From a virus, in the IMG/VR virus record IMGVR_UViG_3300042507_007934, positions 1-26,787 of that record: a DNA stretch of 26,787 nucleotides. The stretch is one strand, 5' to 3'. The notes below the pieces were generated by a model. The model was given only the letters and a program-made list of their open reading frames with translations. It did not search any database and had not been told where the DNA came from. This document shows, piece by piece, positions 3,583 through 24,671 of the stretch (position 1 is the stretch's first letter; every line of letters begins with the position of its first letter). The position numbers and the translations under genes were made by a program.

Positions 3583-3972
3583 ATGAAAGCGCAAGATTTC
3601 AAAAAAATAATAAAAGAAGCAGTTAGAGAAGCTATCCAAGAGGAATTAAAAGATATCCTTTTGGAAGCAGTTCGTACTCCTAAATTACCAATCCAGGAAA
3701 CTTACCAAATGAACAATTTGTTGAGCCCTGTAGCTGTTGATTCAACAACACCTCAAATTCCACAAAAATCAGCTACTGAAAAAAGAGCAATGATGGAAAG
3801 TATTATGGGTGATATGAGAAGAGGACAAGATACTCTTAATTTTACAACTCAGAATATAGCAGCCAATACTTTACAGGTAACCCCAGGTATGAATACTATG
3901 GGGGATGGAACTAAACTCCCAGAAGGTAATGTAGGTCTTGATATGATTATGGGATTAATGAATAAAAAATAA
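3583..3972 (+). CDS. Small protein with an amphipathic N-terminal helix, function unknown
   Basis: A 129-aa protein. Residues 1-30 form a strongly amphipathic charged helix (KKIIKEAVREAIQEELKD) ending in ILLEAV. Two L/I-x-E-A tripeptide contexts (IKE-A at 10-13 and LLE-A at 26-29) match the general form of prohead protease sites in T4-like phages. The rest is polar and methionine-rich (MMESIMGDM, GMNTMGDG, DMIMGLMNKK), with no catalytic motif. It is followed by gp25 through a TAATG overlap and preceded by an ATATTTATA motif. It may be a minor virion or assembly protein. The similarity of its head to those of the genes at 18191-24671 is seen directly, but a shared function is inferred. Confidence 0.65.
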   Translation: MKAQDFKKIIKEAVREAIQEELKDILLEAVRTPKLPIQETYQMNNLLSPVAVDSTTPQIPQKSATEKRAMMESIMGDMRRGQDTLNFTTQNIAANTLQVTPGMNTMGDGTKLPEGNVGLDMIMGLMNKK

Positions 3973-13250: not shown

Positions 13251-14981
13251 GTGGCTGAAAAAAGAATAGCTAATAAAAGAGTTGATACTGATGGTGGTAT
13301 CTGGGTAGATAGACGTTTAGCTTTTAATAAATTCAATCTCCCTATAATCGAGTCTGGGTGGCAAAATTATTTCCTTACCATAGACAACGATGGAATTACC
13401 TCTCTAGCCCAGGGAATGTCAGGAACTAGTGGAGCAGGTACAGCAGGAACATCAGGCCTTTCTAATGGCACTTCAGGCACCTCAGGTACTTCAGGCGCAA
13501 GAGGAACTTCAGGCACATCAGGCACATCCGGTGTGGGTTCCGCAGGCACCTCAGGAGCTACTGGTACTTCAGGAGCCCCAGGCACTTCAGGCACTTCGGG
13601 AGCCCCAGGTACTTCAGGAGTTCCAGGTAGTTCAGGTACTTCAGGAGCTCAAGGCACTTCAGGCACATCAGGTGCTCCTGGCAATCCTGGTACCTCAGGC
13701 ACTTCAGCTCCAGGTATAACTTCAGGTACTTCTGGTGTGGGTTCACCTGGAAGTTCAGGCACCAACGGTACTTCAGGAGCCAATGGTACTTCAGGCATAA
13801 ACGGATCTTCGGGCACATCAGGCTTTAGAGGCACTTCAGGCACCTCAGGTATTAATGGTACTTCGGCCACTAGCGGCACTTCAGGTACTAATGGTACAAC
13901 AGGTACTTCCGGAACCAGTGGTACATCTGGTATTAATGGTACCGCCGGTACTTCAGGAGCTCAAGGAACAGGGGGAACAAGCGGAACCTCAGGGGCTCAA
14001 GGTGATAAAGGAGCTCAAGGAACAGGAGGAACAAGCGGAACAAGCGGAACTTCAGGGGGGGCTGGTGCTGCCGGTACTTCTGGTACTTCTTCTACAAGTG
14101 GTTCTACCTGTGGAAATGCTGTAGCTTTTCAATCAGCCGCAATTCTTCAAAGTACAGCTCAAAACGCCCAATTAAGATTTAGAAGACTTTATACCCTCCC
14201 AGTATTAGCTAACCAAGCAGGAGGAATTTCTACTACTCCTTCATCTGAGATGTATAATTTTAATAATCCTTCTTATACTGGAGGCACTACAGAAAGCCCA
14301 GTTACGGTTCTTAATGCCACTATCCCCTCTAATTTCGCTAATGCTATAGCTAATTCTTTAACATCCCCAGTAACTTATGAAGGAGATCTTTTAGACCAAG
14401 ATCCCCTATATGCAGGTGAAGTAGCTAATATGCTTCCCATGGATACGGTTATGTATACTACTTATGCCCAAAACCCAGACCCATCAACAGCACCTGCTTA
14501 CAGAAGACCTTATTTAGCTACTAATTTTTCTTTTATAGGAAATAATGCAGCTCAAGACCTTTCAGATGCTTCATTTATAGTTTGTATGGTGGTTTTTGGT
14601 TTAACTCCTAAACCTGCTCATTTAGAAACATTCTGGGGTCCCGATATATATTATAATCCTTATAATAATATTCTTAGTACTAATAATCCTCAAATAATTG
14701 AATACAATGTTAGATTTATAGGACCTATAATCCCTGACAATCCATTTTTAAGTGAAACTTTTACTAGAGCTACTAATAATTGGAGGTCTACAGGTGTAGC
14801 AGATGTTGCCGGGTATAACCATTATGGGATAGGTTGGACTATAATTAATCCTGATACTCCTGAAGATGATGAAGGTTATATTGTGTTAAATCCTGAAAGT
14901 TTAGGTAATATCAATACTATGATTAGAGGAAGGTGGGGTCATGTATTTAAGATTTGTCAACAACCTTTACCTCAAGTTTAA
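13251..14981 (+). CDS. Collagen-like tail fibre protein with Gly-X-X repeats
   Basis: A 576-aa protein in three parts. Residues 1-56 form a short head ([18 protein letters not shown]..). Residues of about 57-286 are an almost unbroken Gly-X-X array, mostly GTS with APG, AQG, INGT and VGS variants, expected to form a collagen-like triple helix. The C-terminal 290 residues are aromatic-rich and globular ([47 protein letters not shown]), a plausible trimerisation or receptor-binding tip. The start chosen is GTG: GTG-GCT-GAA here parallels ATG-GCT-GAG in the preceding gene, and there is no better ATG upstream. It lies 6 bp after the giant tail gene, as expected for a fibre assembled onto it. Confidence 0.8.
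13418..14103 (+). repeat. Degenerate 9-bp DNA repeat encoding the Gly-Thr-Ser array
   Basis: Tandem degenerate copies of a 9-bp unit (GGCACTTCA, GGTACTTCA, GGAACATCA and similar) encode the collagen-like stretch. The region is more GC-rich than its surroundings and keeps several other frames open on both strands; these are by-products of the repeat. Third positions vary (GGC/GGT/GGA, ACT/ACA/ACC, TCA/TCC/TCT), so the array is old or under selection against perfect repeats. It could still expand or contract by slippage. Confidence 0.85.
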
Positions 14982-16748: not shown

Positions 16749-17717
16749 ATGGGAGCTTGGAAACAATTTTTAACCTCAGACATAATTGTTACCCCATTTC
16801 AGGTTAACAAAGGTTTTAGCTTACCTTATACCCAATGGGCAACCGGATCAGATGGGCAAATAGTAGGTATCGATAGATTTTTTGGACTTAGCGGTAGTTG
16901 GTTTAGCAATAAATCAACTACTGGTACTCTTACTGTCGAATACCAAACTTTAATTTACGATTCTGTAAAACAACTCTACTACTCTAATTTTTTGAGTAGT
17001 AGTACAGGAGACAATGCTGTACCTCCTACTCTTATCCCCGGTTCTACCCCTTCAGGTTCAGGTAATGTTTTAATAGGGTCTGGTTCAGGTCCTCTATACG
17101 ACAATTTCTTACAAAGCACTTTAACTCCACAACGATACTGGAATCCTATAGAAATTTTAGTTTTATCTGTACCTTCAAAAGTTTATGGAGAATATATTGC
17201 TCCTAATACTTTTAGATGGGCTTGTGGCACACCGGGTGTTGAAGGAACTATTGTAGATGATGGGGAAGGTAACCTATTTTCAGGTAGTACTAATGTGGGG
17301 AATATTATTTACCCTCATGGTCTAGCAATCTTAACTTATACTTCTTCTATTTTTGGAGAAGACCTTGCGTTTTGGTTAGGAGAAACAAACATGACTTGTT
17401 CTTTCTCTTCATCCATGACCATATATGAAACACAATATAAATGCACAATCCGAGAAGATGAGTTTAATCTTACACTAAACCCATCAGCTCAAGCCAGTGG
17501 TTCTATAATCACTGTTAATTCAGGATCAGGATCATTTTACCAACCAGGTAATGGAAAACTATTAGATACTGTAACCGGATCTTATTTCTCACCTTATGTA
17601 ACCACTGTTGGTTTATATAATGAAGCACAAGATCTATTGGCTGTAGCCAAATTATCACAACCATTACCTACTTCAAACACAACTGATCTGACAATCCTAG
17701 TAAACCTAGATAGATAA
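16749..17717 (+). CDS. Probable virion/fibre protein, paralog of the preceding gene at its C-terminus
   Basis: A 322-aa beta-rich protein, low in Lys and Arg, with many Ser, Gly, Tyr and Trp residues. The N-terminus reads WKQFLTSDIIVTPFQVNKGF and the middle has Gly/Ser-rich loops (STPSGSGNVLIGSGSG). The C-terminal 80 residues repeat the module of the preceding gene (YVTTVGLYNEAQDLLAVAKL). An ATG at 16745 is in another frame, and the in-frame ATG at 16749 is used here. The stop overlaps the start of the GIY-YIG-like gene as TAATG. Its location in the virion is unknown; the paired arrangement suggests a heteromeric assembly with its neighbour. Confidence 0.7.
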   Translation: MGAWKQFLTSDIIVTPFQVNKGFSLPYTQWATGSDGQIVGIDRFFGLSGSWFSNKSTTGTLTVEYQTLIYDSVKQLYYSNFLSSSTGDNAVPPTLIPGSTPSGSGNVLIGSGSGPLYDNFLQSTLTPQRYWNPIEILVLSVPSKVYGEYIAPNTFRWACGTPGVEGTIVDDGEGNLFSGSTNVGNIIYPHGLAILTYTSSIFGEDLAFWLGETNMTCSFSSSMTIYETQYKCTIREDEFNLTLNPSAQASGSIITVNSGSGSFYQPGNGKLLDTVTGSYFSPYVTTVGLYNEAQDLLAVAKLSQPLPTSNTTDLTILVNLDR

Positions 17718-18160
17718 TGTGGAAATATAATAATGAAGAAATGACTTGCCTTGAAGATTTCCCTCAAGGCACTTATGGTTTTGTATATAGAGTTATACAT
17801 AAACCTAGTGAAATTGCTTATATAGGAAAAAAAGTTTTATTTCATAATATAAAAAAGAAACTTACCAAAAAAGAATTAAATCTGATAGAAGGTCAGGGAC
17901 GACGTCCTGTATATAGATTAACCCAAAAAGAATCAGACTGGAAGACTTATTATGGTTCTGCTAAACCTATTTTAGAACTTATTAGTAATGGAAGATCAGA
18001 CGAATTTGAACGTACTATTATTAAATTAGCTCCTGATAAAAAATTGTTAACTTATTACGAAACTAAATATTTGTTTGTGTATGAAGTTTTAGAAAAGCCT
18101 GATGATTTTTATAATGATAATATTTTAGGTAAATTTTATAGTAAAGATTTTTTTCAATAA
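17717..18160 (+). CDS. GIY-YIG-like nuclease domain protein
   Basis: A 147-aa protein. The first 45 residues contain YGFVYRVIHKPSEIAYIGKK, which fits the paired GIY (here GFVY) and YIG strands of the GIY-YIG nuclease fold. It is followed by DWKTYYGSAKPILELI, as in phage members of this group. The Glu in LLTYYETKYLF is a good candidate for the metal-binding glutamate of the family. The end (DDFYNDNILGKFYSKDF) matches the layout of small phage GIY-YIG-type proteins that lack a separate DNA-binding domain. It could be a stand-alone nuclease, a homing-type enzyme or a DNA-processing protein. It sits at the end of the structural block, coupled by TAATG. Activity is inferred. Confidence 0.7.
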   Translation: MWKYNNEEMTCLEDFPQGTYGFVYRVIHKPSEIAYIGKKVLFHNIKKKLTKKELNLIEGQGRRPVYRLTQKESDWKTYYGSAKPILELISNGRSDEFERTIIKLAPDKKLLTYYETKYLFVYEVLEKPDDFYNDNILGKFYSKDFFQ

Positions 18161-18190: not shown

Positions 18191-18817
18191 ATGAAACGTA
18201 CGGAACTCCTCAACCAGATCAAGAATCATATTTTAAAAGAAGTTCAAGTTAAAACTTCTAAAGTATCCAAAGACAACCCTAATATCTTTGTTGTAGCTAA
18301 AGTAACCTACAAACCCGAGGATTACACTAAATATGTTCGATTCGCACAAGGTACATACACAGGAAATTCTCCAGAACAATACCTAAAAAACGCTATCCAG
18401 TTAAGACAAAGAGAAAAAAAAGAATTTGATCCTAATACTTTAAGTTACTATTTCAATCAAGATGGTAACATGGAAAATTATGAGGTTGAATTTATTGAAA
18501 CTGGTTTGTCTGCAAACGAAGCTACAAGAATGGCTAATCAAAAAAACCAAGAACTTGGTATTAAAGATAAGAGATTAGGTGGTTTAGCAGGTGTTTCTAA
18601 TCCTATTGAAGTAGATAAAAAAGATATTATAGGACCTATGAAAGATGGTTTCTACTATATTGATAAAATGGCTTTACCTAAATATAAAACCTTAAAAGTA
18701 GATAAAAAAATTGAAACTGTTATAAATGGTTTCAATAAACTTACTAAGAAGCCTAAATCTTGGACTTATCTTAAAATTACTTCTCAAATCAAGCCTACTA
18801 CATCTTTAACAAAATGA
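18191..18817 (+). CDS. Unrecognised protein with a targeting-like head peptide (208 aa)
   Basis: The first 17 residues (MKRTELLNQIKNHILKE) form a basic amphipathic helix ending in L-K-E, followed by VQVKTS. This has the form of a T4 capsid-targeting head cleaved after L/I-x-E. The body is Lys-rich and mixed alpha/beta (PNIFVVAKVTYKPEDYTKYV, YEVEFIETGLSANEATRMAN, GFYYIDKMALPKYKTLKV), with no catalytic motif that I recognise. The segment around residues 95-150 reads like a small GIY-YIG-neighbour or helix-turn-helix-like region, but too weakly to claim. It overlaps the next gene as ATGA and opens a run of genes with similar heads. Packaging in the head is an inference. Confidence 0.65.
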   Translation: MKRTELLNQIKNHILKEVQVKTSKVSKDNPNIFVVAKVTYKPEDYTKYVRFAQGTYTGNSPEQYLKNAIQLRQREKKEFDPNTLSYYFNQDGNMENYEVEFIETGLSANEATRMANQKNQELGIKDKRLGGLAGVSNPIEVDKKDIIGPMKDGFYYIDKMALPKYKTLKVDKKIETVINGFNKLTKKPKSWTYLKITSQIKPTTSLTK

Positions 18818-19743
18818 TTAAGTTAAGTTCTCTTTTAAAAGAAATCAAAGTTATATCACCATATGATAGACTAGTTATACAGTTATCAGCTACGGATGAA
18901 TATGGTGAAGCACGAGATAAAACTACACTTATTTTTCCAAAACATGGAGACCAATTACATCCAGAAGATAAAGCATATCTTGAATCAGAAGAAGTAGGTA
19001 TTCCTGAGGAAAGTGGATTTTTTTTCTATTTAGATCTTGCTTTAATGTATTTTGAAAATCAGATTCAACAATTAGGAAATAACCCAGATAGATCTCAAGT
19101 AGAAGATGTAATAATAGAATTAGTAAAAGATTTATCTAAATATATTGAGGAAAATGAAGCTTATTCTATAGAGGATACAGGTCCAAGAGATGATATTGCA
19201 AATAATATTCTAGAGAAATTTAAAGAACTTTTCCCAACCGTTAACCCCCACTTTGTAGGTCTGGGGTGGTTCACTTTTTCTAATGGTTTAGTAGAATCTT
19301 TAGTAGAGGGCGATCCTTCATTTCTTATAGACTTTACCTTTGGGGGTAATGTAAATGAAATTAGAGTAGTAGCTCCTAATCTATCCATAGCTGATTACTT
19401 AAATTCTCCTCAAAATACAAAAGATGTTAGAGATTGGGCGTGGGAATATTCTAGAAATAATTTGGACCGTACTGAACATCAAGAAATCTATAACGACTAC
19501 ATACAGCGTATAAAACCTGGAAGTTTTCGACTTGTTGACCCTGATAGGGATCCAATGGGTGCTACAGACTATAATTTTGATAAAGTTTTTAAGGACCCAC
19601 TTAATGTAGCCACATTCAATTTCTCCACAGAACAAGTATGGTACTTTGCTTTTTCCTCTAACTTTTTAGAGGGAGGTTTTAAATTCTGGGATTTAGAACC
19701 ATTTTTTGCTGGAGATAAACTTATTGAAGCCGTAACTTTCTAA
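18814..19743 (+). CDS. Unrecognised two-unit protein with repeated E-I-K/R-V junctions (309 aa)
   Basis: The head MIKLSSLLKEIKVISP is almost the same as that of the following gene, with L-K-E at 8-10. A second junction, NVNEIRVVAP, lies at about 179-188 and divides the protein into two units. Unit 1 (about 11-178) is acidic and helical (LALMYFENQIQQLGN, VEDVIIELVKDLSKYIEENE) and ends in a beta region. Unit 2 (about 183-309) is Trp/Tyr/Phe-rich (VRDWAWEYSRNNLDR, VWYFAFSSNFLEGGFKFWD). No enzyme motif is recognised. It overlaps the previous gene as ATGA and stops 4 bp before a paralog in head and layout. The junction repeat is seen directly; cleavage there is a hypothesis. Confidence 0.68.
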   Translation: MIKLSSLLKEIKVISPYDRLVIQLSATDEYGEARDKTTLIFPKHGDQLHPEDKAYLESEEVGIPEESGFFFYLDLALMYFENQIQQLGNNPDRSQVEDVIIELVKDLSKYIEENEAYSIEDTGPRDDIANNILEKFKELFPTVNPHFVGLGWFTFSNGLVESLVEGDPSFLIDFTFGGNVNEIRVVAPNLSIADYLNSPQNTKDVRDWAWEYSRNNLDRTEHQEIYNDYIQRIKPGSFRLVDPDRDPMGATDYNFDKVFKDPLNVATFNFSTEQVWYFAFSSNFLEGGFKFWDLEPFFAGDKLIEAVTF

Positions 19744-19747
19744 AGAT

Positions 19748-20869
19748 ATGATTAAATTAGTTAACCTTTTAAAAGAAATTAAAGTTGTTAGTCCAAAAAC
19801 TGAATTGATTTTTTGGCCTGCCCTCTTAAAAGCTTTAAGACGAAATTTTGGAAAAGATTGGAAAATATATAATAATCTTACCACATCTTCCCCCTCAGTT
19901 AAAATCTATAATGCTATCTATAATGCTACTAATAATTTAGAAGATATAAAACAATTTATTGATTCTATTGATGGTTGGAGATCATCTCCCATATCTAGAG
20001 GCCAATTACTAATTTACCCTACAACTATGGCCAGAGGAAAGGTTAAACAGGATATATTGACATCCTATAGACATCCCGAAAGAGAAATCTCTCCTTTAGT
20101 TTTAGATTTTTTTACAAAATTACGCCAACAAGGAATTGCTGATCTTAATACACCCCAGGAGTATTTTTCTTTTATAAAACCCCACTTCCCAGCTGGGGTT
20201 AATGAAATTAAAGTTTTAGATCCTAAAGATATAAATTTTTATGGTAATATACCTGCTTTGGGTATTTTATTTAATTATTCTGATGAGGAACCAGAAATTC
20301 CTTATGAATGGGACGATAAGGAGATACGAAAACTAGTTAAAGGTTTAGGATATAAAGATTGGAAAGATATAGCAGGTGAAGTCACTCACTATTTCCCCCC
20401 AGATGATGAGGATTTTTTAATAACAATTAGAGATCAAGAAAATCGTCCTAATATAGAAGTTAAAGACCTTACTATAGGAATGATTATTAAGAATATTTTA
20501 CAAGACTTCCCTTACGAATCAGATGAACCCATTGAAACTGATAGTTATGTGCCTAAAGTTAAGGATGTTGAAGTTGATAATAGTTTTAAAACAAAACAGA
20601 ATCCAAAATTAAAAGCTCTTATTGAAAAATATAAAGATGAATTAATTGATAAATTTGAATTAGATAGATCTGCTGTAGAAGTAATAGATTACACATATTA
20701 CCCTGAAGTAGGGATTGGATCACCTTATAGCGGATTTGTTAAATCTGTAAAGTTTATCACACCTAAAGATTGGGAAGAAAATAAAAAATATTTTGCTCAA
20801 AATCAAAACTATAGAGAAGCCAAAAATATAAAAATAGGGGGTGTTGATTTAAAATATTATATAAATTAA
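19748..20869 (+). CDS. Unrecognised two-unit protein with repeated E-I-K-V junctions (373 aa)
   Basis: It begins MIKLVNLLKEIKVVSP, nearly the same head as the preceding gene, and carries an internal AGVNEIKVLDP at about 149-159. The first unit (about 11-150) is basic and aromatic (LLKALRRNFGKDWKIYNNL, KQFIDSIDGWRSSPISRG). The second (about 154-373) is acidic and then Lys-rich (EEPEIPYEWDDKEIRKLV, YFPPDDEDFLITIRD, NPKLKALIEKYKDELIDKFE). The differing charge of the two parts suggests that two former genes have fused. No catalytic motif is visible. It is separated by only 4 bp from the upstream paralog and followed by the first 18-bp hairpin repeat. Function is unknown; head packaging is inferred from the head peptide. 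Confidence 0.68.
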   Translation: MIKLVNLLKEIKVVSPKTELIFWPALLKALRRNFGKDWKIYNNLTTSSPSVKIYNAIYNATNNLEDIKQFIDSIDGWRSSPISRGQLLIYPTTMARGKVKQDILTSYRHPEREISPLVLDFFTKLRQQGIADLNTPQEYFSFIKPHFPAGVNEIKVLDPKDINFYGNIPALGILFNYSDEEPEIPYEWDDKEIRKLVKGLGYKDWKDIAGEVTHYFPPDDEDFLITIRDQENRPNIEVKDLTIGMIIKNILQDFPYESDEPIETDSYVPKVKDVEVDNSFKTKQNPKLKALIEKYKDELIDKFELDRSAVEVIDYTYYPEVGIGSPYSGFVKSVKFITPKDWEENKKYFAQNQNYREAKNIKIGGVDLKYYIN

Positions 20870-20877
20870 TAAAAAAT

Positions 20878-20895
20878 ATCTTAAAAGTTAAGCTT
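20878..20895 (+). repeat. 18-bp hairpin direct repeat, left copy
   Basis: ATCTTAAAAGTTAAGCTT occurs here and again, identical, at 22076-22093. It contains a perfect small hairpin (CTTAA, loop AAG, TTAAG). The two copies bracket the three-gene block with shared heads. The left copy is not followed by the CCAAGCTT arm and T-tract that turn the right copy into a terminator. Confidence 0.8.
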
Positions 20896-20910
20896 AGAAA
20901 TAAAATTAAA

Positions 20911-20985
20911 ATGAAAAAACAACTACTTTCCGAAGAATTTACTCGCATGCAAAAGCTTGCAGGCATTGTAAATGAAATTAAAGTA
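20911..20985 (+). repeat. 75-bp coding head repeat, copy A
   Basis: These 75 bp encode the shared 25-residue head. They differ from copy C (21706-21780) at about five positions, by eye, while the DNA after the repeat shows no similarity. The border of similarity falls exactly at the end of NEIKV. Confidence 0.85.
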
Positions 20986-21237
20986 GAACCTCCTATGAAA
21001 TTAAAATTTAAAGAAGGTGTTTACGGTTTTATCTTTGATTCTCAACATGATGAGATTGTAAAAATATTCACATCACCCCCAAGTGAAGCTGAATTAAAAC
21101 GTCTTTCAGGCATGTTAGATGAATATGATATGATATTTACAGACCTTAAAACAGTTAATGAATTGTTTGAAATTGAAAGTAAAGAACAATTATTAGCCGA
21201 TAAAGGATTGAGTCAAGTATTAGATTGGTGGCAATAA
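20911..21237 (+). CDS. Small protein, shared-head family member A (108 aa)
   Basis: The first 25 residues (MKKQLLSEEFTRMQKLAGIV then NEIKV) are almost identical to those of the next two genes; the body then diverges completely. The head is an amphipathic helix ending in V-N-E, close to the L/I-x-E form of prohead protease sites. The body (about 26-108) begins EPPMKLKFKEGVYGFIFD and continues as a small alpha/beta domain ending DKGLSQVLDWWQ. I do not recognise it. It follows the left 18-bp repeat and lacks a Shine-Dalgarno; the start is preceded by AAAATTAAA, as in the next gene. Shared head plus unique body suggests a common delivery address with different cargo. Confidence 0.68.
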   Translation: MKKQLLSEEFTRMQKLAGIVNEIKVEPPMKLKFKEGVYGFIFDSQHDEIVKIFTSPPSEAELKRLSGMLDEYDMIFTDLKTVNELFEIESKEQLLADKGLSQVLDWWQ

Positions 21238-21243
21238 ATTAAA

Positions 21244-21318
21244 ATGAAAAAACAACCACTCTCCGAAGAATTTCAACGCATGCAAAAGCTTGCAGGTATT
21301 ATATCTGAAATTAAAGTA
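21244..21318 (+). repeat. 75-bp coding head repeat, copy B
   Basis: This is the most diverged of the three copies, with changes clustered near the middle (CAACGC for ACTCGC) and before the junction (ATATCT for GTAAAT). The 5' flank (AAATTAAA before ATG) matches that of copy A, so the repeat unit includes the initiation region. Confidence 0.82.
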
Positions 21319-21702
21319 ACATCTGGTTCTTTCCCTCTCCCTAAAGGGTGGAAAGAACTACCTGTAGATAATGACCCAGATCTAGAAGAAGATATTGAAA
21401 TTGAAAGTTATGGTGCCCCTATGGAAGGGTGGGATGAAGATCATCCTGATATTGTAAGCATCTACTCAACCCCAGAAATTGATGCCGAGACCGGAGAACC
21501 AATAGAAAAAAAGCAATACTATGTAGAAGTCTATATATCTTATGGTGATTGGGCAGAAGATATGGAAAAATATGATACATTTATAGGAGCTAAAACAAAA
21601 GCTATAGAAATAATGAATGATATATCTAGTGATTGGCCTGATGATGAAGATTGGGATACCGATTTTGATAATGACGATGATGATAACAATAATGAAATTT
21701 AA
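21244..21702 (+). CDS. Very acidic small protein, shared-head family member B (152 aa)
   Basis: It has the same 25-residue head as its two neighbours, here reading FQRMQKLAGIISEIKV with I-S-E before the junction, an exact match to I-x-E. The body is highly acidic throughout (DNDPDLEEDIEIESYG, GWDEDHPDIVSIYS) and ends in an Asp/Asn-only tail (DWDTDFDNDDDDNNN). The middle contains a small beta strand and helix region (KKQYYVEVYISYGDWAEDME). The charge pattern recalls DNA-mimic proteins, but acidic phage proteins are common and the likeness is weak evidence. It lies 6 bp after member A and 3 bp before member C. Function is unknown; delivery with the phage DNA is inferred from the head. Confidence 0.66.
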   Translation: MKKQPLSEEFQRMQKLAGIISEIKVTSGSFPLPKGWKELPVDNDPDLEEDIEIESYGAPMEGWDEDHPDIVSIYSTPEIDAETGEPIEKKQYYVEVYISYGDWAEDMEKYDTFIGAKTKAIEIMNDISSDWPDDEDWDTDFDNDDDDNNNEI

Positions 21703-21705
21703 AAA

Positions 21706-21780
21706 ATGAAAAAACAACTACTCTCAGAAGAATTTACCCGCATGCAAAAGATGGCAGGCATTGTAAATGAAATTAAAGTA
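21706..21780 (+). repeat. 75-bp coding head repeat, copy C
   Basis: Nearly identical to copy A: about five differences in 75 bp, three of them silent and two in one Leu-to-Met codon. The match stops at the end of NEIKV, as in the other copies. Confidence 0.85.
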
Positions 21781-22059
21781 AAACCTTCATTACCAAAAAA
21801 CGTAGAAGCATTCAAACAATTTATAATCTCAGAATTAGGTGAGGTTTTAGAAGATTACATTGAAAGTGGTGAAAACTTATTTGGTGAGCCCTTTGATGCC
21901 CCTCAATATGAAGAATTAAAAAATTCTATTAATAGCTTAACAACATTAGAAGATATAGAAAATGTCGTTGAGGATTTTTTATATGAAAATGTCTATGAAA
22001 AAGATTACGAAGTAAAAGATTTTTTTCAATATATCTATAGAAATTTTATTGAAGGATAA
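21706..22059 (+). CDS. Small acidic protein, shared-head family member C (117 aa)
   Basis: The head is MKKQLLSEEFTRMQKMAGIV then NEIKV, differing from member A at one residue (M for L). The body starts KPSLPKNVEAFKQFIISELG and is a helical acidic domain (EVLEDYIESGENLFGEP, LEDIENVVEDFLYENVYE) ending in aromatics (VKDFFQYIYRNFIEG). No family is recognised. It begins 3 bp after member B and is followed by the right 18-bp repeat and terminator. Together the three genes look like a cassette row in which one head has been joined to different bodies. Confidence 0.66.
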   Translation: MKKQLLSEEFTRMQKMAGIVNEIKVKPSLPKNVEAFKQFIISELGEVLEDYIESGENLFGEPFDAPQYEELKNSINSLTTLEDIENVVEDFLYENVYEKDYEVKDFFQYIYRNFIEG

Positions 22060-22075
22060 AATATATTTTTAAAAC

Positions 22076-22093
22076 ATCTTAAAAGTTAAGCTT
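22076..22093 (+). repeat. 18-bp hairpin direct repeat, right copy
   Basis: Identical to 20878-20895. Its last bases (AAGCTT) form the left arm of the terminator hairpin that follows, so the small CTTAA/TTAAG hairpin and the terminator stem cannot both form at once. Confidence 0.8.
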
Positions 22094-22115
22094 GGTTTTC
22101 CAAGCTTTCTTTTTT
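22088..22115 (+). terminator. Intrinsic terminator after the shared-head gene block
   Basis: A perfect 8-bp stem AAGCTTGG / CCAAGCTT with a TTTT loop (22088-22107) is followed by TCTTTTTT. Flanking AAAAG and CTTTTT can extend the pairing across a small internal loop. It separates the head-peptide genes from the primase gene that starts at 22127 and is the strongest terminator candidate in the window. Confidence 0.75.
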
Positions 22116-22126
22116 ATCTTATCTAC

Positions 22127-23059
22127 ATGGTTAATCAACTACTTGTAGCGCTTGTCAATTCTGTTTTAGGGCAGGGGAAATCAACTGCAAGAGGTAACCA
22201 AGCCCACACCTGCCCATTTTGCCATCACCATAAACCCAAATTAGAAATAAATCTTAGTGAAGGAAATGGAGATAAAAACCCGTGGCATTGTTGGGTGTGT
22301 GGGAAAAAAGGAGTAAAGCTAATCACTCTATTTAAACAAATTGGAGCTCCTGAAGATAAACTAAACGAATTACGTGCTTTAGTTAAATCTTCATATAAAG
22401 ACGAGCAAACCCAAACCCACGAAGAAGCTAAACTACCTGAGGAATTTAAACCTATTTCTCAAATCACCGAAAATGATATTGTAGGGAGACATGCCATTGC
22501 TTACCTTAAAAAACGAGGTATTACAAAGGCAGATATTCTAAAATACAATATAGGATATTGTGAAAGTGGCAACTTTAAAAACATGATCATAATCCCTTCT
22601 TACAATATTTCAGGTAAACTTAACTATTTCACAGCCCGGAATTTTGATTCTACATCCCCAGTAAAATATAAAAATCCACCTCTTAGCCGAAATATAATTC
22701 CTTTTGAGCTTTATATAAATTGGTCTTCACCGCTTATATTGTGCGAAGGACCATTTGATGCCATAGCCATCAAACGTAATGCTATCCCGCTTCTAGGAAA
22801 AAATATACAAGCTAATTTGATGAAGCGTATTGTAACTTCTCAAGTTGAAAAAATTTATATTGCTTTAGATAAGGATGCCCAAAAAGATGCTTTAAAATTT
22901 ACTGAATTACTCTTGGCTGAGGGTAAAGAAGTTTATATCGTTGACCTGGATGAAAAAGATCCGAGTGAAATGGGATTTGAAAACTTTACTAAACTTATAC
23001 ACGAAACATATCCCACAAATACATTTGACTTAATGTCAAGAAAAATAGCACTATTATGA
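22127..23059 (+). CDS. DNA primase, gp61-like, with zinc ribbon and Toprim domain
   Basis: A 310-aa primase that would make RNA primers for phage DNA replication (T4 gp61 is 342 aa). The N-terminal zinc ribbon has C29-P-F-C32, then WHCWVCGKKG with C55 and C58. The Toprim core is visible as LILCEGPFDAIAIK (Glu207, Asp211) and IYIALDKDAQKDALK (Asp248, Asp250), the acidic residues expected to bind metal. Between them, LKKRGITKADILKYNIGYC and NFKNMIIIPSYNISGKLNYF fit the DnaG/gp61-type catalytic core. It lies directly after a terminator, has no ATATTTATA motif, and overlaps the following nuclease gene by 4 bp (ATGA), as expected for a separate replication transcript. No helicase domain is present. 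Confidence 0.88.
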   Translation: MVNQLLVALVNSVLGQGKSTARGNQAHTCPFCHHHKPKLEINLSEGNGDKNPWHCWVCGKKGVKLITLFKQIGAPEDKLNELRALVKSSYKDEQTQTHEEAKLPEEFKPISQITENDIVGRHAIAYLKKRGITKADILKYNIGYCESGNFKNMIIIPSYNISGKLNYFTARNFDSTSPVKYKNPPLSRNIIPFELYINWSSPLILCEGPFDAIAIKRNAIPLLGKNIQANLMKRIVTSQVEKIYIALDKDAQKDALKFTELLLAEGKEVYIVDLDEKDPSEMGFENFTKLIHETYPTNTFDLMSRKIALL

Positions 23060-23867: not shown

Positions 23868-24671
23868 ATGATCAGTCTTATTCAATTACTAGAAGAAGTC
23901 TCTTCCAGACCCAAAGCTATTATATTAGCAGGTTCTCCGGGTGCTGGAAAGACTTCTTTTGTTGAAAATTTTATACAGCCTTTTAAATTAGAGGTTTTAA
24001 ATATAGACGATTATTATAAACAAAACTTACAACAGGCTGGAGTTTCTTTAAATCTTAAACAAGCCACAGCTGAGGAAAGAAGCAAATCATCTTCAGCGAT
24101 GCATAAATCCATTAAAGAATACCAAGCAGCTTTAAACGAAAAAGTTAAACAAAAAGCTAACATCCTCATAGACTCAACCTCAGGCTCTTTTAAAAAAACA
24201 GCTGAGCTAAAAAATTATTTAGTAAAAAATGGGTATGATGTTTTTATGGTATATATGTTTGCTTCACTAAAAAAGTCTTTGAGAAGAAATGACACTAGAT
24301 TTGATAGATCCAATGGAAAAGATAGAAGTCTTCCCCCGTCAATTGTTTTACAAACATGGGTTAATGTTAGTAAAAATTACGACAATTATAGAACCTTTTT
24401 TGGCGATAATTTTATCTCGATTGTAAACGACGATCTTCCTAAAACTTTATCTTCCCTAAAAGACATAAAGCAAATCTATTTAGAGCCATATAAGATTACA
24501 GACTCTAAACCTAAAACTCCTCAGGAGCAGGCTAAATCTGATTCGCTTAATAAAGAAAATGATTTGTTTATCACGAATTTTTGGAAATCAGATAAAACCC
24601 AAGACATTATAGATAATTCAATTTCAAAAAAAGAAGCACAAGCCAAAATTAAGTCATTTCTTCAATCATGA
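23868..24671 (+). CDS. Zeta-toxin-like P-loop kinase with a targeting-like head
   Basis: A 267-aa protein. After a short head (MISLIQLLEEVSSRPK, with L-E-E at 8-10) comes AIILAGSPGAGKTSFVENF, a clear Walker A (Gly22 to Ser30), and then VLNIDDYYK, as in zeta-toxin and polynucleotide-kinase-like P-loop enzymes. ANILIDSTSG and YDVFMVYMFASLKKSLRRND fit the core strands, and an Arg-rich segment (RRNDTRFDRSNGKDR) fits a phosphate-binding lid. The C-terminal 60 residues are polar and helical. Zeta proteins phosphorylate UDP-N-acetylglucosamine, but the substrate here is not evident, and no epsilon-type antitoxin is adjacent. It has an ATATTTATA motif upstream and an ATGA overlap downstream. Confidence 0.78.
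   Translation: MISLIQLLEEVSSRPKAIILAGSPGAGKTSFVENFIQPFKLEVLNIDDYYKQNLQQAGVSLNLKQATAEERSKSSSAMHKSIKEYQAALNEKVKQKANILIDSTSGSFKKTAELKNYLVKNGYDVFMVYMFASLKKSLRRNDTRFDRSNGKDRSLPPSIVLQTWVNVSKNYDNYRTFFGDNFISIVNDDLPKTLSSLKDIKQIYLEPYKITDSKPKTPQEQAKSDSLNKENDLFITNFWKSDKTQDIIDNSISKKEAQAKIKSFLQS

Follow-up and report, generated by a model that had tools for sequence, protein, structure and literature searches.

A scaffold-like peptide heads exchangeable genes of T4-type phages as a probable cleavable capsid-targeting sequence

Three tandem genes of a virus start with one highly similar 25-codon head and continue with entirely different bodies. Judged from sequence comparisons, this head is very probably a cleavable capsid-targeting sequence that borrows the terminus of the phage scaffold and serves interchangeable, injected cargo; packaging, cleavage, injection and the anti-defence role of the cargo are what we infer from the genes. 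The head core, RMQKLAG(I), reads as the same peptide as the conserved C-terminus of the gp22 scaffold in this group of phages, so the cargo should dock where the scaffold tail docks, whether on shell, portal or core. Docked cargo would be carried into the prohead by co-assembly, a gp21-type protease would free it at an (I/L)xE site that closely follows the docking helix, and the freed cargo would be injected with the DNA into the next bacterium. The bodies would then be early-acting proteins that can replace one another, most of them probably directed against host defence, and a hypervariable site would gain and lose them in the form of gene cassettes. A broader reading, which we favour with less confidence but still hold to be rather probable, is scaffold mimicry: heads would be detachable copies of the termini of core proteins (class A being that of the scaffold C-terminus), one docking site and one protease would serve both scaffold removal and cargo loading, and the phage pool would swap injected effectors via their heads, including strings of polyprotein cut by the protease.

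The genes lie on the plus strand of a 26,787-bp virus record, the whole of which was analysed (the window), and are spaced by 6 and 3 nt (Table 1). The head positions given in the initial annotation (20911, 21244 and 21706) are exact. Over 75 nt we count 9 differences between copies 1 and 2, 11 between copies 2 and 3, and 5 between the outer copies, the last figure being the one estimated earlier. In blocks of 15 bases, identity is 11-15 within the heads against 3-8 in the block directly after, which bears out the abrupt end of similarity described after codon 25; copies 1 and 3 run on for about two further codons (E/K-P) past IKV. A repeat search of the window likewise groups the heads into a single family of 84 nt, at 86% and 93% identity, and clustering places the three bodies in three separate single-member clusters. 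The upstream region, also described as partly shared, stands for copies 1 and 2 (10 of the 15 bases before the ATG) but hardly for the other pairs (about 5-6 of 15), so that this sharing is weak.

Table 1. Features of the exchange site and its flanks in the window
Feature	Position	Strand	Basis
Conserved upstream boundary gene, GIY-YIG-like by eye	17717..18160	+	Directly upstream of primase in relatives
Island gene 1, head MKRTELLNQIKNHILKEVQV (class C-like, LKE)	18191..18817	+	ORF list; lies in the insertion that empty-site relatives lack
Island gene 2, head MIKLSSLLKEIKV (class D, LKE)	18814..19743	+	ORF list, locus comparison
Island gene 3, head MIKLVNLLKEIKV (class D, LKE)	19748..20869	+	ORF list, locus comparison
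23-bp direct repeat, left copy	20873..20895	+	Repeat search; same sequence just before primase in L168
Head 1 (class A), MKKQLLSEEFTRMQKLAGIVNEIKV	20911..20985	+	Repeat search, block comparison, class A family
Cargo gene 1, 108 aa, body without known relatives	20911..21237	+	ORF list, body clustering, family and body searches
Head 2 (class A), MKKQPLSEEFQRMQKLAGIISEIKV	21244..21318	+	Repeats; predicted structure has helix at 8-16 and linker of low confidence at 18-28
Cargo gene 2, 152 aa, folded alpha/beta domain about 29-128	21244..21702	+	Predicted structure; body relatives L338, L339, L041
Head 3 (class A), MKKQLLSEEFTRMQKMAGIVNEIKV	21706..21780	+	Repeat search, block comparison
Cargo gene 3, 117 aa	21706..22059	+	Body also in L161 under different (class B) head
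23-bp direct repeat, right copy	22071..22093	+	Repeat search; one mismatch to left copy
Intrinsic-terminator-like hairpin and T-run closing island	22088..22114	+	-13.4 kcal/mol, z -5.3; conserved in L161, L162, L163, L168
DnaG-type primase, conserved downstream boundary	22127..23059	+	Family searches; query used to find relatives

The window heads belong to what we call class A, MKKQ(I/L)LSEEFxRMQKLAGI(I)xE, a protein module widespread among T4-type relatives of the cultured Flavobacterium phage immuto. Further copies were collected with a degenerate-DNA scan of IMG/VR for RMQKLAG followed by a hydrophobic residue, and the counts given here cover the matches listed. Since the scans fixed RMQKLAG or EEFxxRMQKLAG, conservation of these columns is by construction; the downstream protease sites lay outside the selection. 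A search of 84,980 bacterial and archaeal genomes gave no match to the pattern, which occurs in at least 119 stretches of viral contigs. Among the matches listed, 231 distinct RxQKLAG-like contexts were found, with the motif at most 16 aa after the Met in 137, at most 6 aa from the C-terminus in 80 and elsewhere in 14. The N-terminal motifs of these matches sit in small proteins, usually at M+11 or M+10 (78 of 137 at exactly M+11). The C-terminal ones mostly lie 2-3 residues before the stop and belong in most cases to one protein of ~350-500 aa.

In five loci and in immuto, this larger protein is encoded directly between a gp21-type prohead protease (phrog_207, E about 1e-54) and a gp23-type major capsid protein (phrog_138, E about 1e-73), downstream of portal and terminase. 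It is acidic and of low complexity, has no match among the PHROG families, and begins in most copies with (I)A(E/D)AK, to be compared with LIAEAQ in T4 gp22. Because of its position and composition we regard it as the gp22-type scaffold. In the alignment its end, PEVISE-VSDAV-RRMQKLAGIIK-end, is among the most conserved parts (R, QKLAG and I are invariant columns), and much of the remaining protein is of low complexity. Aligning the immuto scaffold tail with the class A cargo head of the same phage gives a score of 49, against a maximum of 26 after shuffling. Scaffold tail and cargo heads also occur together within one record in immuto, G003, G020, L091 and G009. The window, a 26.8-kb fragment, has no gp20-gp23 region of its own and the scaffold identity is taken from relatives of the window phage, which encode a T4-type gp21 protease, gp22 scaffold and gp23.

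T4 gp21 cleaves after (I/L)xE-type sites, and the original capsid-targeting sequences are the internal-protein propeptides of the same phage (PMC9026906, PMC9958956). In the matches listed, an (I/L)xE follows the class A head core within 7 aa in 123 of 137 cases, against 126 of 2257 windows (5.6%) taken from the bodies of the same proteins. Similar tendencies are seen in the head proteins: the first 16 aa of gp23 contain such a site in 96 of 98 sequences (218 of 2306 control windows), and gp21 homologues have one N-terminally in 38 of 52 (control 104 of 432), many starting MxxxLLIET, as T4 gp21 does, with LLIET at the place of LIE-9 of T4. Scaffold tails have the site within 12 aa before the motif in 66 of 80 of the matches listed, at a scaffold background of 640 of 1996. 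Among the window heads, head 2 has ISE at the expected site; heads 1 and 3 have VNE (IVNE) there, which is not (I/L)xE, and LSE upstream. In the predicted structure of cargo 2, the ISE site falls in the low-confidence stretch between a short helix and a confidently predicted domain.

Mullaney and Black (1996) and Repoila et al. (1994) are said to have described the T4 internal proteins IPI, IPII and IPIII with their capsid-targeting sequences. Like the class A genes, these have a short N-terminal propeptide on unrelated bodies, an (I/L)xE for gp21 and a place as variable genes in a genomic hotspot (reviews PMC9026906, PMC12373910); as read from the genes alone, class A genes thus show the sequence-level features that define the T4 system. 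The likeness that we claim is one of mechanism and not of homology, the T4 targeting sequence MKTYQEFIAE and the class A head having no common block by eye. The T4 heads are also without likeness to the C-terminus of T4 gp22, whereas class A copies the scaffold C-terminus: when T4 gp22 and the T4 internal proteins were compared in the same way as the immuto pair, nothing comparable was found, and the idea of such a resemblance in T4 was rejected for lack of similarity in the alignment. Compared with T4, body families are also far more numerous in the class A group, which has mixed arrays, polyprotein cargo and several classes of head that can replace one another. The ejection proteins of phiKZ and SPN3US are alike in that cleavable propeptides with short x-x-E sites occur on many packaged proteins (PMC9026906), but they differ in protease specificity (S/A-x-E) and in phage lineage. 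How proteins are selected for the T4-type prohead core was called 'mysterious' in a 2023 review (PMC9958956). A targeting peptide that can be read as a copy of the scaffold end names a candidate docking site and makes it testable. A search of the open-access literature for the motif strings returned no paper, and the scaffold-tail identity of the head, the interchangeable head classes, the fused or polyprotein cargo and a virion-tagged Acb1 appear to be undescribed in the open-access literature searched.

The proposal of a targeting-type head that is combined with many other bodies agrees well with the collected genes: in the matches listed, 131 class A heads stand on 80 body families, of which 61 are singletons. 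A second head, class B (M(E/D)NFDLKKYLAEGKLLKE, F[DN]LKKYL...LLKE), was found in 95 N-terminal cases on 72 body families, 91 of the 95 with (I/L)xE, and classes C (MKKSELRxLIKEEL) and D (MIKLxxLLKE) occur within the same arrays. It is common to find the same body under a different head. In L161 a class B head precedes the body of window cargo 3 (82% nucleotide identity over 245 bp, 68% amino acid identity over 82 residues), and further A-B, A-C and A-D pairs exist. The body of cargo 2 recurs in L338 behind a variant head, adjoining apparent chaperonin genes, and twice within a 601-aa polyprotein of L339, in which five segments are each introduced by E-ARVTP.

The window is a fragment of a T4-type myovirus, with a gp25-like gene at 3972 upstream of the DnaG-type primase; the same order is found in immuto at about 82-106 kb, and from this Flavobacterium-phage relative the host is probably a member of the Bacteroidota. 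The three genes make up the second half of an island of six (18191-22059), in all of which a short head contains an (I/L)xE site or something like one. The exchange site, from the upstream boundary gene to the primase, is empty in 64 of 81 loci and then measures only 27-55 bp; these loci include L158-L160, with primases 86-87% identical. The 17 occupied loci, the window among them, hold one to six genes, mostly one to three with A, B or C/D heads, the window having six. Insertions of other genes are seen at the site in L176, L182, L213 and L235. Relatives therefore do not repeat the same three bodies in the same order, and the variable copy number that the initial annotation had anticipated for cassette shuffling is what is found. 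A 23-bp direct repeat flanks the three-gene block on both sides, and its right copy, as in L168, is part of the conserved junction and terminator that precede the primase. Gain or loss of the block by recombination between short repeats, a frequent event in T4 (PMC9391042), agrees with this arrangement. A candidate island promoter, TATATTTAT, was discarded as not above chance within the window.

The initial annotation also saw in the head a site of homologous recombination, and this holds in part. Within contigs the synonymous-codon identity of heads is 0.77, against 0.58 expected from contig codon usage and 0.59 between contigs. Of 27 within-contig pairs (not all independent), 22 exceed the expectation, the three of the window included, and about a quarter show little or no excess. 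Given this excess, recent duplication or conversion of heads is probable in many phages. On the other hand, head homology is not the sole route of exchange, because bodies also join heads of other classes without evident nucleotide similarity, and the 23-bp repeats that flank the block suggest that other short homologies recombine too. It might be argued from the synonymous excess and the flanking repeats that the head is mainly a DNA element, i.e. a short homology block kept for cassette capture with a secondary role as protein. We consider this improbable: between phages the head is kept as protein and not as DNA, with synonymous codons at codon-usage background; the peptide is also kept at the scaffold C-terminus, where it is useless as a cassette head; and bodies move between heads of unrelated sequence.

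Nearly as improbable, with only slightly more in its favour, is that the head sends proteins not to the prohead core but to some other complex or section of the virion, be it the tail, the baseplate, the portal vertex or a replication or membrane complex. The island indeed lies between baseplate/tail-fibre genes and the primase, outside the head operon, but so do the ip genes lie outside it in the T4 genome. Moreover, the sole carrier of the motif at a fixed position is the scaffold beside gp21 and gp23, and the enrichment of protease sites matches head maturation. Tandem order, near-identical heads and the spacing of 3-6 nt would also be expected if the genes were simple tandem duplicates, their bodies diverged beyond recognition and the head held under constraint. 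The sharp boundary at codon 25 argues against this, and since body 3 recurs under another head and body 2 recurs both in a different neighbourhood and inside a polyprotein, the bodies have separate histories; simple duplication is the least probable explanation of all.

Under the preferred reading of the head as a capsid-targeting sequence, the function of the cargo is of interest. The three window bodies match no Pfam, PHROG or PADLOC family above noise, and body-only scans gave no relative of body 1 or 3 (the L161 match of body 3 came via the primase search). For the cargo 2 model, a Foldseek fold search gave no convincing match (best E 0.7 in PDB, 0.04 in BFVD), and the best VIA-align Z of 6.4 is within the range that the tool calls common. 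Few of 76 representative cargoes have a family match. One class A cargo (L106:4266-4826) matches Pfam Acb1 (PF23474) with 29.1 bits at a cut-off of 27 and keeps two HxT motifs, HCT and HMT; it has no sequence match in PDB, and its structure, predicted from a single sequence at pLDDT 37, is unusable. In T4 the gene for gp57B, which is Acb1, adjoins ipI; the L106 cargo instead carries the class A head itself, and with that head it would be a virion-delivered Acb1. The T4 internal proteins are injected, and the three, with only the leader in common, inhibit three distinct GmrSD enzymes (PMC12373910). Because of these internal proteins and the Acb1-family cargo, the cargo is likely an anti-defence pool delivered with the DNA, a role based on one Acb1-like case and the T4 analogy (most bodies match no known family) and extended by analogy to the three window bodies. 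Used as a search key, the head flags dozens of otherwise unrecognisable small phage protein families as probable injected effectors, the Acb1-like anti-CBASS case already being among them.

Some individual genes deserve mention. The L106 gene encodes a 2H-phosphoesterase-like cargo of the Acb1 anti-CBASS family under its class A head. In T4 (L392, 15592-16411) the start of gp57B, MMEFKDFST, recalls MKTFKEFTST of the neighbouring ipI and is possibly a degenerate targeting head on Acb1 of T4. The L339 gene (L339:13-1818, IMGVR_UViG_3300046007_008394) has five E-ARVTPVG repeats between domains of ~110 aa in its 601-aa reading frame; domains 3 and 5 are the relatives of window cargo 2 and domain 4 resembles a class A cargo of L065 by eye, so that it is an apparent cargo polyprotein. 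Two class A heads per reading frame, i.e. fused cassettes, occur in L290 (ORF L290-3264), where the second head has no Met at its start, and in L274 (ORF L274-3012). In L402 (G018), neighbouring genes over about 3 kb have class D, A, C and D heads and form a mixed-head array. The relative of cargo 3 in L161 (2655-3428) extends into a leucine-rich-like repeat domain (TSLPxNLxVxGNLDLSYTKI) that is absent from the window gene.

The class A motif is also found deep in longer reading frames (offset 121-393) of L240, L268 and L284, and of L004, L248 and L333; in three of the six it lies about 40 aa before the C-terminus and is followed by VITE, as in a possible C-terminal targeting tag. A 914-aa protein of L262 (ORF L262-1427) has class A-like motifs at both ends, MEKSLNGEFLRMQQLAGIEF ... 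EEFLRMQKIAGLKK-stop, and recalls T4 Alt, a head-packaged enzyme with cleavable termini, both of which are processed by gp21 (PMC9026906). Elsewhere in the window, a tail-fibre-like gene (13251-14981) contains a long collagen-like GTSGTSG tract that aligns with L158 in many registers, probably reflecting repeat-driven length variation. Finally, the window encodes a zeta-toxin-like P-loop kinase at 23868-24671 (Pfam PF06414, E=4.8e-16), which is conserved beside primase and exonuclease in many relatives and whose N-terminus, MISLIQLLEEV, resembles a class D head.
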